A DNA stretch of 41,201 nucleotides from an uncultured Anaerolineae bacterium (GTDB taxonomy: Bacteria; Chloroflexota; Anaerolineae; Anaerolineales; Villigracilaceae), in assembly GCA_937120535.1 (NCBI GenBank), contig CAKZJX010000130.1, positions 1-41,201 on the forward strand, given 5' to 3'. Made by a program: the position numbers and the translations under genes. Below, piece after piece: positions 36,089 to 40,934 of this stretch. Below the pieces are notes generated by a model. It had not been told where the DNA came from. It saw only the letters and a list, made by a program, of their open reading frames with translations, and searched no databases. How positions within the stretch are numbered: the stretch's first letter is position 1; each line of letters begins with the position of its first letter.

Positions 36089-37402
36089 ATGTCCCCCTCG
36101 CGCATTCCTGGCTTCTACGATCTGCCTTTGTCCGAACGCCTCTCCCGCCTCAGCCAAGCAGCGGGTTTGATCCCGGCCGATCTGGCCGCGTGGACGACCG
36201 GCGGCCTCACCCCCGACGCGGCCGACCATATGATTGAGAACGTAGTCGGAACCCACGCTCTGCCGCTCGGCATCGCCCTCAACTTCGTGATCAACGGCCG
36301 CGAGGTGTTAATCCCGATGGCGGTGGAAGAGCCATCCGTCGTTGCGGCCGCCTCGTTCATGGCCAAGCTGGCCCGGGCCGGTGGCGGATTCATCGCCACG
36401 GCCTCGGAACCCCACATGATCGGACAAGTCCAGGTCGTTCACCTGCGCGATATCCATCAGGCAAAAGCCAAACTATATGAACACAAGGCCGAACTTCTGG
36501 AAATAGCCGACACCGTTGATCCCGTCTTGAAAAGCCTGGGGGGAGGTGCGCGCGATCTCGAGGTGCGCGTGATCGAAAGCTCACCGATCGGACCGTTCCT
36601 GGTGCTACACCTCATCTACGATGTGCGCGACGCCATGGGGGCCAATGCTGTCAACACCGCTTGCGAGAAGCTTGCCCCCCATGTCGAAGCCATCACCGGT
36701 GGTCAGGTGTTGCTGCGCATCCTCTCCAACCTGGCCGACCGGCGGATCGCATGCGCCCAGTGCACCATCCCAGTCCGCCAATTAGACATGGTGAGCGAAC
36801 GCGCTAACCTGCCCACCTATAGAGGCGAAGAAGTGCGCGATCGGATCATCGTTGCCTGGGCGTTTGCGGCTGCCGATCCCTATCGTGCTGCCACTCACAA
36901 CAAGGGGATCATGAACGGAATCGACGCCGTGGTCGTCGCCACCGGCAACGATTGGCGGGCCGTAGAAGCCGGCGCCCATGCTTATGCCGCGCGCTCTGGC
37001 CGTTACACCGCCCTTTCGACCTGGGGAAAGGACGAAAAGGGCAATCTCGTCGGTAGATTAGAGATGCCTATGGCAGTGGGAATCGTGGGTGGAGCGACCC
37101 GCGTCCACCCAGCCGCCCGAGCGGCCATCAAACTGATGGGCGTCAAAACCGCCGGCGAACTGGCCGAGATCATCGTCTCGGTCGGTTTGGCCCAAAACCT
37201 AGCTGCCCTGCGCGCCTTGGCTACCGAGGGCATTCAGCGTGGGCACATGGCCCTCCATGCCCGTCAAGTGGCCATTGCGGCCGGCGCTACCGGCGAGCTG
37301 ATCGGGAAAATCGCCGCCCAAATGGTGGCCGAGAAAATGATCCGCATTGATCGCGCCGAACAACTGGTGCGAGAGTATACCGGCACCCAACAAAAACCTT
37401 AG
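36089..37402 (+). CDS. mvaA: Class II (MvaA-type) hydroxymethylglutaryl-CoA reductase
   Basis: This 437-residue enzyme interconverts HMG-CoA and mevalonate with NAD(P)H. Catalytic residues are visible: E81 (MAVEEPSV), K272 (HNKGI), D288 (TGNDWR) and H386 (GHMALH). The DAMGAN cofactor motif is at 181-186. The length and the GFYDLPLSERL opening match the class II (Pseudomonas mevalonii MvaA) group rather than the class I enzymes of most archaea and eukaryotes. Class II enzymes were first known as degradative, but next to an HMG-CoA synthase gene a biosynthetic role for isoprenoids is likely. It heads a five-gene cluster on the plus strand. Confidence 0.95.
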   Translation: MSPSRIPGFYDLPLSERLSRLSQAAGLIPADLAAWTTGGLTPDAADHMIENVVGTHALPLGIALNFVINGREVLIPMAVEEPSVVAAASFMAKLARAGGGFIATASEPHMIGQVQVVHLRDIHQAKAKLYEHKAELLEIADTVDPVLKSLGGGARDLEVRVIESSPIGPFLVLHLIYDVRDAMGANAVNTACEKLAPHVEAITGGQVLLRILSNLADRRIACAQCTIPVRQLDMVSERANLPTYRGEEVRDRIIVAWAFAAADPYRAATHNKGIMNGIDAVVVATGNDWRAVEAGAHAYAARSGRYTALSTWGKDEKGNLVGRLEMPMAVGIVGGATRVHPAARAAIKLMGVKTAGELAEIIVSVGLAQNLAALRALATEGIQRGHMALHARQVAIAAGATGELIGKIAAQMVAEKMIRIDRAEQLVREYTGTQQKP

Positions 37403-37411
37403 GAGGTCTGC

Positions 37412-38095
37412 ATGAGCAACCAACTGACGTGGTATGGACACGCTACACTTGGCCTGCAAACCAACGGCTACAAACTTCTGATCGACCCTTTCTTTGAAGG
37501 GAATCCGTCCGCACCGCTTTCCGCCGATAACGCCGAGGCCGATTTCATCCTGATCAGCCACGGCCACGGCGATCATGTGGGAGATGCCGTGGCGATCGCC
37601 AGGCGCACTGGCGCAACCGTGATCAGCAACTTTGAAATCGCTTCGTGGGTCGAAAAGCAAGGGATCAAGGTCCATCCCCAACACATCGGCGGCGGATTCA
37701 AACATCCTTTCGGATATCTCAAGCTTACTCTCGCGCTACACGGCTCCGCCCTGCCGGATGGTTCCTATGGCGGCAATCCATGCGGCTTCTTACTCACCAC
37801 TAACGATGGCAAGAAGATCTACGCCGCCCAGGATACCGGCCTGTTCGGCGACATGAAGTTAATCGGGGAAGAAGGGCTAGATGTGGCAGTGATCCCGATC
37901 GGCGATAACTTCACCATGGGGCCCGACGACGCCCTGCGCGCCGTGTACTTGCTCCAGCCCAAGGTTGTGGTCCCGATCCACTACAGCACCTGGGATCTGA
38001 TCGCCCAAGATCCCCACGCTTGGGCACAGCGCGTGGAGCAAGAGACCAACATCAAAGTAGTCGTCCTTAGTCCTGGAGAGAGTCTGGAGTTCTAA
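37412..38095 (+). CDS. UPF0173-type metallo-beta-lactamase-fold hydrolase
   Basis: This 227-residue protein has the metallo-beta-lactamase motif HGHGDH (H50, H52, D54, H55), then the AAQDTGLFGDM segment supplying a bridging Asp, and a late PIHYSTWD motif with the last His. Length and pattern fit the UPF0173 group of metal-dependent hydrolases, whose substrate is unknown. It lies between the HMG-CoA reductase and synthase genes (gaps of 9 and 6 bp), with a strong GGAGG ribosome-binding site, which hints at a thioester or lactone housekeeping role in this pathway. That is inference. Confidence 0.88.
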   Translation: MSNQLTWYGHATLGLQTNGYKLLIDPFFEGNPSAPLSADNAEADFILISHGHGDHVGDAVAIARRTGATVISNFEIASWVEKQGIKVHPQHIGGGFKHPFGYLKLTLALHGSALPDGSYGGNPCGFLLTTNDGKKIYAAQDTGLFGDMKLIGEEGLDVAVIPIGDNFTMGPDDALRAVYLLQPKVVVPIHYSTWDLIAQDPHAWAQRVEQETNIKVVVLSPGESLEF

Positions 38096-38101
38096 CCGAG
38101 A

Positions 38102-39166
38102 ATGAACAACATCCTTCTTCGACCTTCCCGGCCGGTGGGCATCATCGGCTATGGGGCGTATATACCGCGCTACCGCCTGCCGGCCAAAGAGATCGCGCGC
38201 GTGTGGGCCGGCGGCAAAACAGCCGGCCTACCGGTGAAAGAAAAAGCCGTTCCTGGCCTGGATGAGGATGTGGCCACCATGTCGATTGAGGCGGCACGCA
38301 ACGCTCTGGCCCGAGCTGGAATCGCCCCTTCTGAGTTACGTGCCATTTGGGTAGGTTCAGAGTCCCATCCCTATGCTGTGAAACCCACTTCGACGATAGT
38401 CGCCGAAGCCATCGGCGCTGCACCCCACATCCAGGCCGGCGACTGGGAATTCGCCTGCAAAGCCGGCACCGAGGCTATGGTGGCCGCCATCGGCTTTGTG
38501 GGCTCGGGCATGGCCGATTACGCCATGGCGATCGGGATGGATACTGCCCAAGGCCGGCCCGGCGACGCCCTGGAGTACACTGCCGCTGCTGGCGGGGCGG
38601 CCTTCGTCCTCGGCCCAGCCGAGAACGCTCTGGCGGTGATTAATGCTGCCTACTCCTACGTCACCGATACCCCCGACTTCTGGCGCCGTGAACATCAGAA
38701 ATACCCCGAACACGGCGTCCGCTTCACCGGCGAGCCAGCCTACTTCCACCACATCACCTCGGCCGCCAAAACCCTGATGGAAGCCCTGGGAACCGCACCC
38801 AAGGACTACCAATGGGCGGTCTTCCATCAGCCTAACACCAAATTCCCCCAGCGCGTGGCTCAGATGCTAGGCTTCTCGCCGGAGCAGATCGCGCCGGGCC
38901 TTCTGGTGCCGACCATCGGCAACACCTATTCCGGCTCATCGATCATCGGGCTAACTGCCATTCTCGACATTGCTCAGCCCGGCGACCGTATCCTATTGAC
39001 CTCCTTTGGATCTGGAGCAGGTTCCGATGCCCTCGACCTAACCGTCGCCGAGGAGATCCTCGAGCGCCGCGATCGGGCGCTGAAAACCCAGGAATACATT
39101 GCGCGGCGCACCGAGATCGACTACGCCGCCTACGCTCGCCTGCGTGGAAAAATCACCATGAAATAG
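38102..39166 (+). CDS. Hydroxymethylglutaryl-CoA synthase, archaeal type
   Basis: This 354-residue enzyme condenses acetyl-CoA with acetoacetyl-CoA to give HMG-CoA. The archaeal-type signature is seen in [29 protein letters not shown] (with the general-base Glu at 87) and [11 protein letters not shown] with nucleophile C119. The later FHQPNTKFP carries the catalytic His and GNTYSGSS the conserved loop. In archaea this enzyme forms a complex with an acetoacetyl-CoA thiolase and a DUF35 protein; homologues of both follow here in the same order. The start ATG has only a distant GGAG. Confidence 0.94.
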
Positions 39167-39230: not shown

Positions 39231-40394
39231 ATGAGTGACATCGTTATTGCAGGTATCGGACAAATCCAGGTCGGCGAACATTGGGAGATCGGGATACGCG
39301 ATCTCGCCTTTTTGGTCATCCGGGCGGCGTTGCGCGATGCCCTCGGCATCCAGCCGCAAGCGCTGATCGTGGGCAATATGTTGGCGCCCAACCTATCCAA
39401 GCAATCCCATTTGGGAACCTTGCTGGCCGATTTTGCTGGGCTAACCGGCATCGAGGCCATTACGGTAGAGGCAGCAGAAGCTTCGGGCGGCATGGCCTTG
39501 CGCCAAGGCTATCTGGCCGTGAAAAGCGGCTGGGTCGATGCGGTGCTGGTGGTCGGCGTGGAAAAGATGACCGATCAGGTAGGAAGCGGCGTCGAGACTG
39601 CCCTGGCGACTACCATGGATAGTGACTTTGAAGCCGTGCATGGAGTTACCACGGCTAGCCAAGCGGCCCTGCTGATGCAGCGTTATCTGCACGAGTACAG
39701 CATCCCGCCTGATGGCTTGGCCGGCTTTGCCCTGACCGCCCACGCCAACGGCGCAGGCAATCCCAACGCCATGTTCCGTAAGCCTATCTCGCTCGACACC
39801 TATCGAAAGGCCGAGCCGATCTCCCCGCCGCTCAATCTCTTCGATGCCGCGCCCAACGCCGACGGTGCAGCGGCGCTGATCCTCACCCGCCGCGACCGCC
39901 TGCCCAAAGATTGGCCGCACCCACCGATCGCTCTGCTGGCCTCGGCGACCGCCTCCGACGCCTTGGCCCTGCACGATCGGCGCGATCCTCTATTCTTCGA
40001 AGCGCTGGCGATCGCCACCCGCCGCGCTCTGGAACAAGCCAAGATCACCTTGGAGCAGATCGACTTCTTGGAATATCACGATGCGTTTAGCATCTATGCC
40101 GCTCTCTCTTTGGAGGCCTCTGGGTTTGCCGAGCGCGGCCAGGGCTGCCGCCTGGCGGCAGAAGGACACATCGCTCGAGACGGCGATCTGCCCTGCGCGA
40201 CGATGGGCGGGCTAAAAGCTCGTGGGTTCGCCGGTGGGGCCACGGGGGTGTATCAGGCCGTGGAAGCGGCGCTGCAGTTGCGAGGTCAAGCTGGAGCCTG
40301 TCAGGTGAAGCCGGCACGGGTGGGGATGATCCAGTCGTTGGGCGGGCCGGCCTCCACGGCCGTCGTGCATATCCTGTCCAACCAAATCGAGTAA
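39231..40394 (+). CDS. Archaeal-type (SCP-x-like) thiolase homologue lacking nucleophilic Cys
   Basis: This 387-residue protein aligns along its full length with archaeal acetoacetyl-CoA thiolases: VEAAEASGG (79-87), VGVEKMTD, the EYHDAF motif with H283, and GLKARGFAGGATG (327-339). Two essential residues are replaced. Position 83, where the family has the acylated Cys (VExACASGG), is Glu (codon GAA, 39477-39479). The His of GHPxGATG is Phe333 (TTC, 40227-40229). Normal thiolase chemistry is therefore unlikely. The reading frame is intact and the gene keeps its place between HMG-CoA synthase and DUF35 genes. It may be a structural partner, a CoA-channel subunit or a decarboxylase-like derivative. 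Confidence 0.88.
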   Translation: MSDIVIAGIGQIQVGEHWEIGIRDLAFLVIRAALRDALGIQPQALIVGNMLAPNLSKQSHLGTLLADFAGLTGIEAITVEAAEASGGMALRQGYLAVKSGWVDAVLVVGVEKMTDQVGSGVETALATTMDSDFEAVHGVTTASQAALLMQRYLHEYSIPPDGLAGFALTAHANGAGNPNAMFRKPISLDTYRKAEPISPPLNLFDAAPNADGAAALILTRRDRLPKDWPHPPIALLASATASDALALHDRRDPLFFEALAIATRRALEQAKITLEQIDFLEYHDAFSIYAALSLEASGFAERGQGCRLAAEGHIARDGDLPCATMGGLKARGFAGGATGVYQAVEAALQLRGQAGACQVKPARVGMIQSLGGPASTAVVHILSNQIE

Positions 40395-40535: not shown

Positions 40536-40934
40536 ATGGAGATCCCACGACATTGGCGATTGAGAAAACAGCGCTATGCCTTGGTCGGTGAAGTTTGCCC
40601 TCACTGCAACGCCAAGATCTTTCCCCCACGCGATGTCTGTCCCGCGTGCCAAGGCGAGGCCAAAGAGCTTTACACCTTCCGCGGCAAGGGTGAAGTCTAT
40701 TCCTTTACCACTATCTATGAGGCTCCTAGTGGGTTTGAGCACCAGGTGCCTTACACGGTAGCTCTGATCCGCTTGGAGGAAGGTCCTCTAGTCACGGCCC
40801 AGTTGACCGATGTGGACGCTTCGGACGTACACATCGGAATGCCCGTGGAAATGGTGACGCGCAAGATCCGGGAAGACGGCGATGAGCGGGGAATGATCAT
40901 CTACGGCTATAAGTTCCGGCCGGCCATGAACTGA
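40536..40934 (+). CDS. DUF35 Zn-ribbon/OB-fold protein
   Basis: This 132-residue protein has an N-terminal helix (HWRLRKQRYALVGEVC), a zinc ribbon with C21, C24, C35 and C38, and an OB-fold (GKGEVYSFTTIYEAPSGFEHQVPYTVALIRLEEGP). In archaea, DUF35 proteins bridge thiolase and HMG-CoA synthase and bind CoA in a shared channel. Its position after both homologues suggests the same complex here. GGAG precedes the ATG. A strong terminator follows. Confidence 0.93.
   Translation: MEIPRHWRLRKQRYALVGEVCPHCNAKIFPPRDVCPACQGEAKELYTFRGKGEVYSFTTIYEAPSGFEHQVPYTVALIRLEEGPLVTAQLTDVDASDVHIGMPVEMVTRKIREDGDERGMIIYGYKFRPAMN

Follow-up and report, generated by a model that had tools for sequence, protein, structure and literature searches.

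The closest described counterpart of the locus reported here is the archaeal complex of a thiolase, an HMG-CoA synthase (HMGS) and a DUF35 protein, in which, according to the accessible part of PMC12329534 (crediting Vogeli 2018), the DUF35 protein holds thiolase and HMGS together and both enzymes share a CoA site. Thiolase-fold proteins without a nucleophile are already known, since the same part of that source names Sal and TbSLP among them and describes Sal and Ltp2 as DUF35-bound thiolase-fold aldolases, with CtSal carrying Gly at a nucleophile position (PMC12329534). An archaeal-type mevalonate pathway is likewise already known in some Chloroflexota, as stated in the accessible portion of PMC13001223. 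In the window, which is the whole stretch of 41,201 nucleotides analysed here from an uncultured Anaerolineae bacterium, and in its relatives, the genes for thiolase, HMGS and DUF35 are linked as in the archaeal complex, and the thiolase homologue of the window is devoid of its nucleophile.

The HMG-CoA reductase gene (36089..37402, + strand; TIGR00532, 427 bits, above the cut-off; PF00368) stands upstream in the cluster. The archaeal-type HMGS (38102..39166, +; PRK04262, 558 bits, above the cut-off) contains Glu87, Cys119 and His242, which we take to be its catalytic residues, and it is followed by the thiolase homologue (39231..40394, +) and then by a DUF35/ChsH2-type zinc ribbon and OB-fold protein (40536..40934, +; PF12172 and PF01796), the probable scaffold of the complex. 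This layout bears out the preliminary description, which had placed the ORF inside the mevalonate cluster. An MBL-fold metal-dependent hydrolase (37412..38095, +; PRK00685, above the cut-off) is encoded between the reductase and HMGS; a relative of it was matched at 5 of the 80 named loci (the best 80 of 273), several of them short, and it is probably not part of the system.

The predicted product of ORF 39231..40394, 387 residues long with an intact frame, is a full-length archaeal-type thiolase homologue, for which the best models are PRK06064 and NF053570, the latter an M. thermolithotrophicus-type thiolase model. Codon 83 (gaa, 39477..39479, +) encodes Glu at the position of the nucleophilic Cys of active thiolases, and codon 333 (ttc, 40227..40229, +) encodes Phe in place of the catalytic His of GHP, the two residues sitting in V79-EAAEASGG-87 and in GLKARGF (327-333), respectively. 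Codon 283 (cac, 40077..40079, +), the His of HDAF, is retained in the window. Columns 83 and 333 of the alignment hold Cys and His, presumably the catalytic residues, in the solved thiolases 7yvy and 6esq. The reading of a full-length frame with Cys83 changed to Glu and His333 to Phe, as first proposed, agrees with both the codons and the alignment. The ORF scores under the curated cut-offs of both models (PRK06064, 386.7 of 420; NF053570, 334 of 600), while a Cys-bearing paralogue from the same genome passes the former (445 of 420) and remains below the latter (392 of 600). The Cys in VEAAC-SGG, the His of GHP and a score above the family cut-off, by which an active archaeal-type acetoacetyl-CoA thiolase would be recognized, are all missing from the ORF, and its thiolase chemistry has very likely been lost. 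The AlphaFold model of the single chain was of high confidence (pLDDT 95, pTM 0.94), and its top structural matches by Z score were 6esq_A (62.3, rmsd 1.3 over 384 residues) and 6et9 (62.1), both of them structures of the thiolase from the archaeal thiolase/HMGS/DUF35 complex, followed by 7yvy (59.3), which ranked first by Foldseek E-value.

A scan of named genomes covered the best 80 of 273 relatives, mostly MAGs and Chloroflexota by title where the phylum was given, and including one named strain, Leptolinea tardivitalis YMTK-2, with the dead (Cys-less) form. A sequencing error is very unlikely because 74 of these 80 relatives lack Cys83 (6 have it) and four same-genus orthologues (L005, L006, L007 and L014) carry Gly83/Phe333; a pseudogene is ruled out to the same degree, as the loss is common to a clade with intact frames. 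No stop codon was found in any of the 80 named copies (best 80 of 273). Among the matches listed, an in-frame TGA occurs in three (G104, G240 and G395), which may or may not be of the dead type.

Once genomes at order, class and phylum level and fetched stretches had been added, 203 rows were aligned, including two archaeal outgroups, and removal of 3 near-duplicates left 200 rows, comprising 125 Cys-less rows (the window included), 69 Cys rows, 4 other Cys-less rows and the 2 outgroups. The 4 other rows (T/H/H or P/H/H at the catalytic positions), none of them seen beside HMGS, were left out of the 125. With the window counted, 194 distinct Chloroflexota copies were gathered, of which 125 have lost Cys83; the rows were mostly taken in best-hit order, so that 125 against 69 is no measure of prevalence. 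In the 125 Cys-less copies, position 83 is Gly in 75, Asp in 35, Glu in 9, Gln in 3, Ser in 2 and Asn in 1, and position 333 is Asn in 50, Phe in 45, Asp in 14, His in 9, Tyr in 3, Glu in 2, and Leu and Arg in 1 each, so that His333 is also gone in 116/125. Position 283 is still His in 85 of them and has been replaced in 40. The 69 Cys copies all have His283, with His (66) or Asn (3) at position 333. Regarding the question whether orthologues share the changes seen in the window, the loss of Cys83 proved common, whereas Glu83 (9/125) is not the common state, Gly and Asp being so, and Phe333 (45/125) is one of several replacements. A specific chemistry of the Glu/Phe pair was ruled out, as these residues vary among the Cys-less copies.

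HMGS lies upstream on the same strand for 124 of the 125 Cys-less rows, L113 being the exception (the count includes L007, whose HMGS was read on a longer stretch, L193), and for 39 of the 69 Cys rows. As HMGS stands beside both kinds of row, the same slot is live in some families and dead in others. Orthologues with Cys, which the preliminary description had listed as evidence against its reading, were found only outside the Cys-less clade, in the same, Cys-bearing slot, and so show what was lost instead of refuting the finding. Of 110 Cys-less rows, many of which lie on short stretches, 68 have DUF35 no more than 6 kb downstream, and it was not found in 2 of the 31 dead-slot genomes among the relatives (G011, and G035, where the contig ends inside the thiolase gene). 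In genome G028, a single run on one contig (C177, L140) contains HMGS, the dead thiolase, DUF35 and a live thiolase. No complete dead copy without HMGS was seen among 41 relatives, a result of little weight given likely assembly gaps, because the 7 genomes without an HMGS match were also without DXR, as were all 41. Genome G003 has HMGS and no thiolase match; its DUF35 gene is truncated by the contig end, so that a thiolase gene may still be present. Short dead-thiolase-like fragments lie upstream of the full copy on two stretches (L197, 4193-4273; L043, near 8987), as if they were duplication remnants.

Phylogenetic placement was assessed with quick IQ-TREE runs, the first tree being built without the three catalytic columns. 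It placed 107 of 109 Cys-less rows in one clade (SH-aLRT 99), and a pruned tree with further Chloroflexota families placed 88 of 96 in one clade (SH-aLRT 98), which included four families outside the window's class (f80, f90, f113 and f115). The free pruned tree put four slot rows (L166, L203, L231 and L240) and four non-slot rows elsewhere; constraining all 92 slot rows to one clade gave a slightly better likelihood, and a single loss of Cys in the slot was not rejected (p-AU 0.55), a few parallel losses there being possible as well. Free parsimony counted 3 Cys-state changes on the first tree and 6 on the pruned tree, some of them in T/H/H and P/H/H copies that stand alone, away from the slot. 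Judged from the sequences gathered, the loss is an old one, shared by several families inside as well as outside the window's class. Separately, three rows (L144, L218 and L222) have Thr at the Cys position, in the motif VRAATATGA in the latter two, and keep both His; they form a clade outside the slot with no HMGS seen nearby, representing a second nucleophile loss.

The dead thiolase had a dN/dS of 0.14-0.18 over three same-genus pairs, against 0.08-0.12 for HMGS, and over all usable pairs the thiolase/HMGS medians were 0.27/0.16 in dead-slot rows and 0.23/0.21 in Cys rows. The thiolase/HMGS distance ratio was 1.88 for dead and 1.10 for Cys-bearing copies, i.e. about 1.7 times faster, indicating weaker constraint; the pairs behind both the distances and dN/dS are non-independent. 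When 108 dead copies were compared with 33 Cys copies, the two classes shared 60 positions that are at least 95% fixed, and another 15 were fixed among the Cys copies but had relaxed in the dead ones; of these 15, eight lie by sequence in or beside catalytic motifs (83, 285, 286, 328, 335, 338, 369 and 374) and seven away from them (72, 113, 125, 128, 256, 293 and 379). New conservation is seen in the dead class at, for example, A145, A207, W306 and L370. Across dead and active operons, with genome repeats included, the Glu/Cys/His of HMGS were invariant in 145/145 aligned copies and the four Cys of DUF35 in 108/108, the loss of catalytic residues within the operon being confined to the thiolase. 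The codon data point to purifying selection on the ORF, and the initial claim of two catalytic losses with frame and gene order kept holds up for a large clade.

The metabolic setting suggests where acetoacetyl-CoA could come from. The source genome (98% complete) gave no DXR match in a search that was positive in 9 of 14 control genomes, and it encodes mevalonate kinase and a (di)phosphomevalonate decarboxylase, the latter above the cut-off of the diphosphomevalonate model. Such a decarboxylase acts on mevalonate phosphate in Roseiflexus castenholzii, as reported in the accessible part of PMC3857490. An active thiolase, which the preliminary description had proposed to look for in the same genome, is predicted several times over: four canonical thiolases, all with the Cys motif and GHP, and an archaeal-type C/H/H paralogue on contig C60, and acetoacetyl-CoA could be derived from either source. 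A canonical thiolase above the cut-off was present in 58/58 dead-slot and 27/33 active-slot genomes examined (Fisher p 0.0017, kinship ignored), which fits a loss of the slot enzyme only where another thiolase exists. Two genomes (G073 and G347), whose copies repeat named rows, were left out of this count, and the active-slot genomes without a canonical thiolase were G025, G039, G043, G075, G148 and G234, the last with 26 of its 59 candidates scored. Contig C136 of the source genome, separate from the mevalonate cluster, contains two adjoining thiolase-like genes (L003, 1501-2490; L004, 1501-2397), whose aligned Cys position is Thr in one case and Gly in the other.

It is reasonable to suggest, with a rough probability of 0.55, that the gene once encoded a working acetoacetyl-CoA thiolase and that its product now serves an HMGS-DUF35 complex as a structural or CoA-docking subunit, and a role as structural partner in a thiolase/HMGS/DUF35 complex is the reading that we infer to be best supported. 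The gene would have been the acetoacetyl-CoA thiolase of an archaeal-type complex, and the ancestor of a large Chloroflexota clade would have given up thiolase chemistry while other thiolases could supply acetoacetyl-CoA, a step backed by the lost catalytic residues, the single origin not rejected and the presence of other thiolases. The protein may have persisted through a continuing need of HMGS and DUF35 for it: the dead subunit would hold the complex together and preserve the CoA site common to thiolase and HMGS, where acetoacetyl-CoA from other enzymes could dock and then reach HMGS with no cleavage back to acetyl-CoA. Afterwards, position 83 would have varied by drift within the small or polar residues and position 333 over a broader set, as the fold and the 60 fixed positions stayed. 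A bolder version, which we put forward only tentatively, is a phylum-scale pseudoenzyme switch, whereby, in many Chloroflexota, the first enzyme of the mevalonate operon would have become a subunit of HMGS that has no catalysis of its own and serves in acetoacetyl-CoA docking or regulation, with HMG-CoA formation made one-way through loss of the reverse thiolysis and acetoacetyl-CoA synthesis moved to general thiolases.

Other readings account for parts of these data. The dead subunit might form a heteromer resembling polyketide chain-length factors, in which an active archaeal-type paralogue encoded elsewhere completes a working thiolase; a second full-length copy of at least 44% identity does occur in 24 of the 31 dead-slot genomes among the relatives, the 17 such copies fetched are Cys-bearing apart from that of G027, and in G028 dead and live copies lie within one run. 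Such an active partner is nevertheless not constant, as 7 of the 31 genomes are without a second copy of that identity (G015, G032, G035 and G038 had no other match, G033 a weak fragment, and G013 and G037 only 35-43% matches), the second copy of G027 is itself T/H/H, and some genomes (G005 and G021, both with C/H/H copies, and G007 and G008) carry the paralogue although their assemblies, which may be incomplete, showed no HMGS and no dead copy. An obligate heteromer with the archaeal-type paralogue is thus not general, and we regard a heteromer as an unlikely explanation. New chemistry on an acyl-CoA, such as retro-aldol cleavage or decarboxylation, like that of other nucleophile-less thiolase-fold enzymes, would have precedents in the DUF35-bound Sal and Ltp2, in line with the accessible text of PMC12329534, and the limitation of residue 83 to G, D, E, Q, S and N could be read in its favor. 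The newly conserved A145, A207, W306 and L370 could likewise reflect a new ligand or reaction instead of a plain scaffold. It is also rather unlikely, however, as the gene follows the HMGS slot, residues 83, 283 and 333 all vary so that no single reaction fits, and the aldolase Tyr-Asp-(His/Cys) motif is missing: where Sal/Ltp2 have YD(C/H)(F/Y), the window has HDAF, Tyr283 occurs in 3/125 Cys-less copies, and position 285 is Cys in 1/127 and His in 0/127 rows. A Sal/Ltp2-type aldolase was ruled out by this missing motif.

Neutral decay, with a redundant thiolase carried along by operon inertia, would be consistent with its evolving faster than the Cys-bearing relatives, with the drift at the three catalytic positions and with its redundancy with other thiolases, but the age of the loss across several families in and outside the class, the stop-free frames of the 80 named copies (best 80 of 273), the low dN/dS and the 60 conserved positions make it quite improbable. 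Least credible is a thiolase still working via a relocated nucleophile, for which Cys322 would be the candidate. It is present in the window and in 44/125 Cys-less copies, mainly those of the G/E-Phe type (33 of 41 rows) and not frequently elsewhere, yet it is absent from 81/125, the clade as a whole shares no Cys column, and His333 is lost too; as a general explanation, a relocated Cys confined to a subclade was ruled out.

Homology-based annotation, which would name the gene acetyl-CoA acetyltransferase of the mevalonate pathway, is very probably wrong for dead-slot Chloroflexota, and pathway reconstructions for them consequently miss the source of acetoacetyl-CoA. Furthermore, since the same slot carries live and dead thiolases in related lineages, with the dead form in Leptolinea tardivitalis YMTK-2 (L076), these lineages offer a natural test of the non-catalytic contribution of the thiolase to the thiolase/HMGS/DUF35 complex. 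No title or abstract opening in the open literature searched describes a thiolase that is dead throughout a clade and occupies the HMGS slot, with a prior mention possible in Vogeli 2018 or in the 2024 Promineifilum breve paper; the new part is this combination within a known complex.

Compared with known systems, the steroid aldolases Sal/Ltp2 and TbSLP share the thiolase fold, but their catalytic Tyr-Asp-(Cys/His) is absent here and their Z scores are 48-51, with Sal and Ltp2 at 48, against 62. The thiolase-like ST0096 of Sulfolobus tokodaii (4YZO) is also without Cys at the aligned position; unlike the protein in the window, to which it is 28-30% identical, it keeps GHP. KSQ domains and polyketide chain-length factors are nucleophile-less subunits of the thiolase superfamily that act in complexes. 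They offer an analogy only, as they are ketosynthases with Cys replaced by Gln and a known partner, whereas here the replacements are mostly Gly or Asp and the partner is probably HMGS/DUF35. The Pyrococcus furiosus thiolase PFC_04095 (7YVY) is the closest solved sequence relative (333 bits) and differs in retaining Cys and GHP. The archaeal thiolase/HMGS/DUF35 complex resembles the locus most broadly, with homologous products, the highest Z scores, matches to the fold of its thiolase subunit and sequence relatedness; its thiolase has both the Cys and the His that are replaced here, where the complex itself is predicted from the genes.
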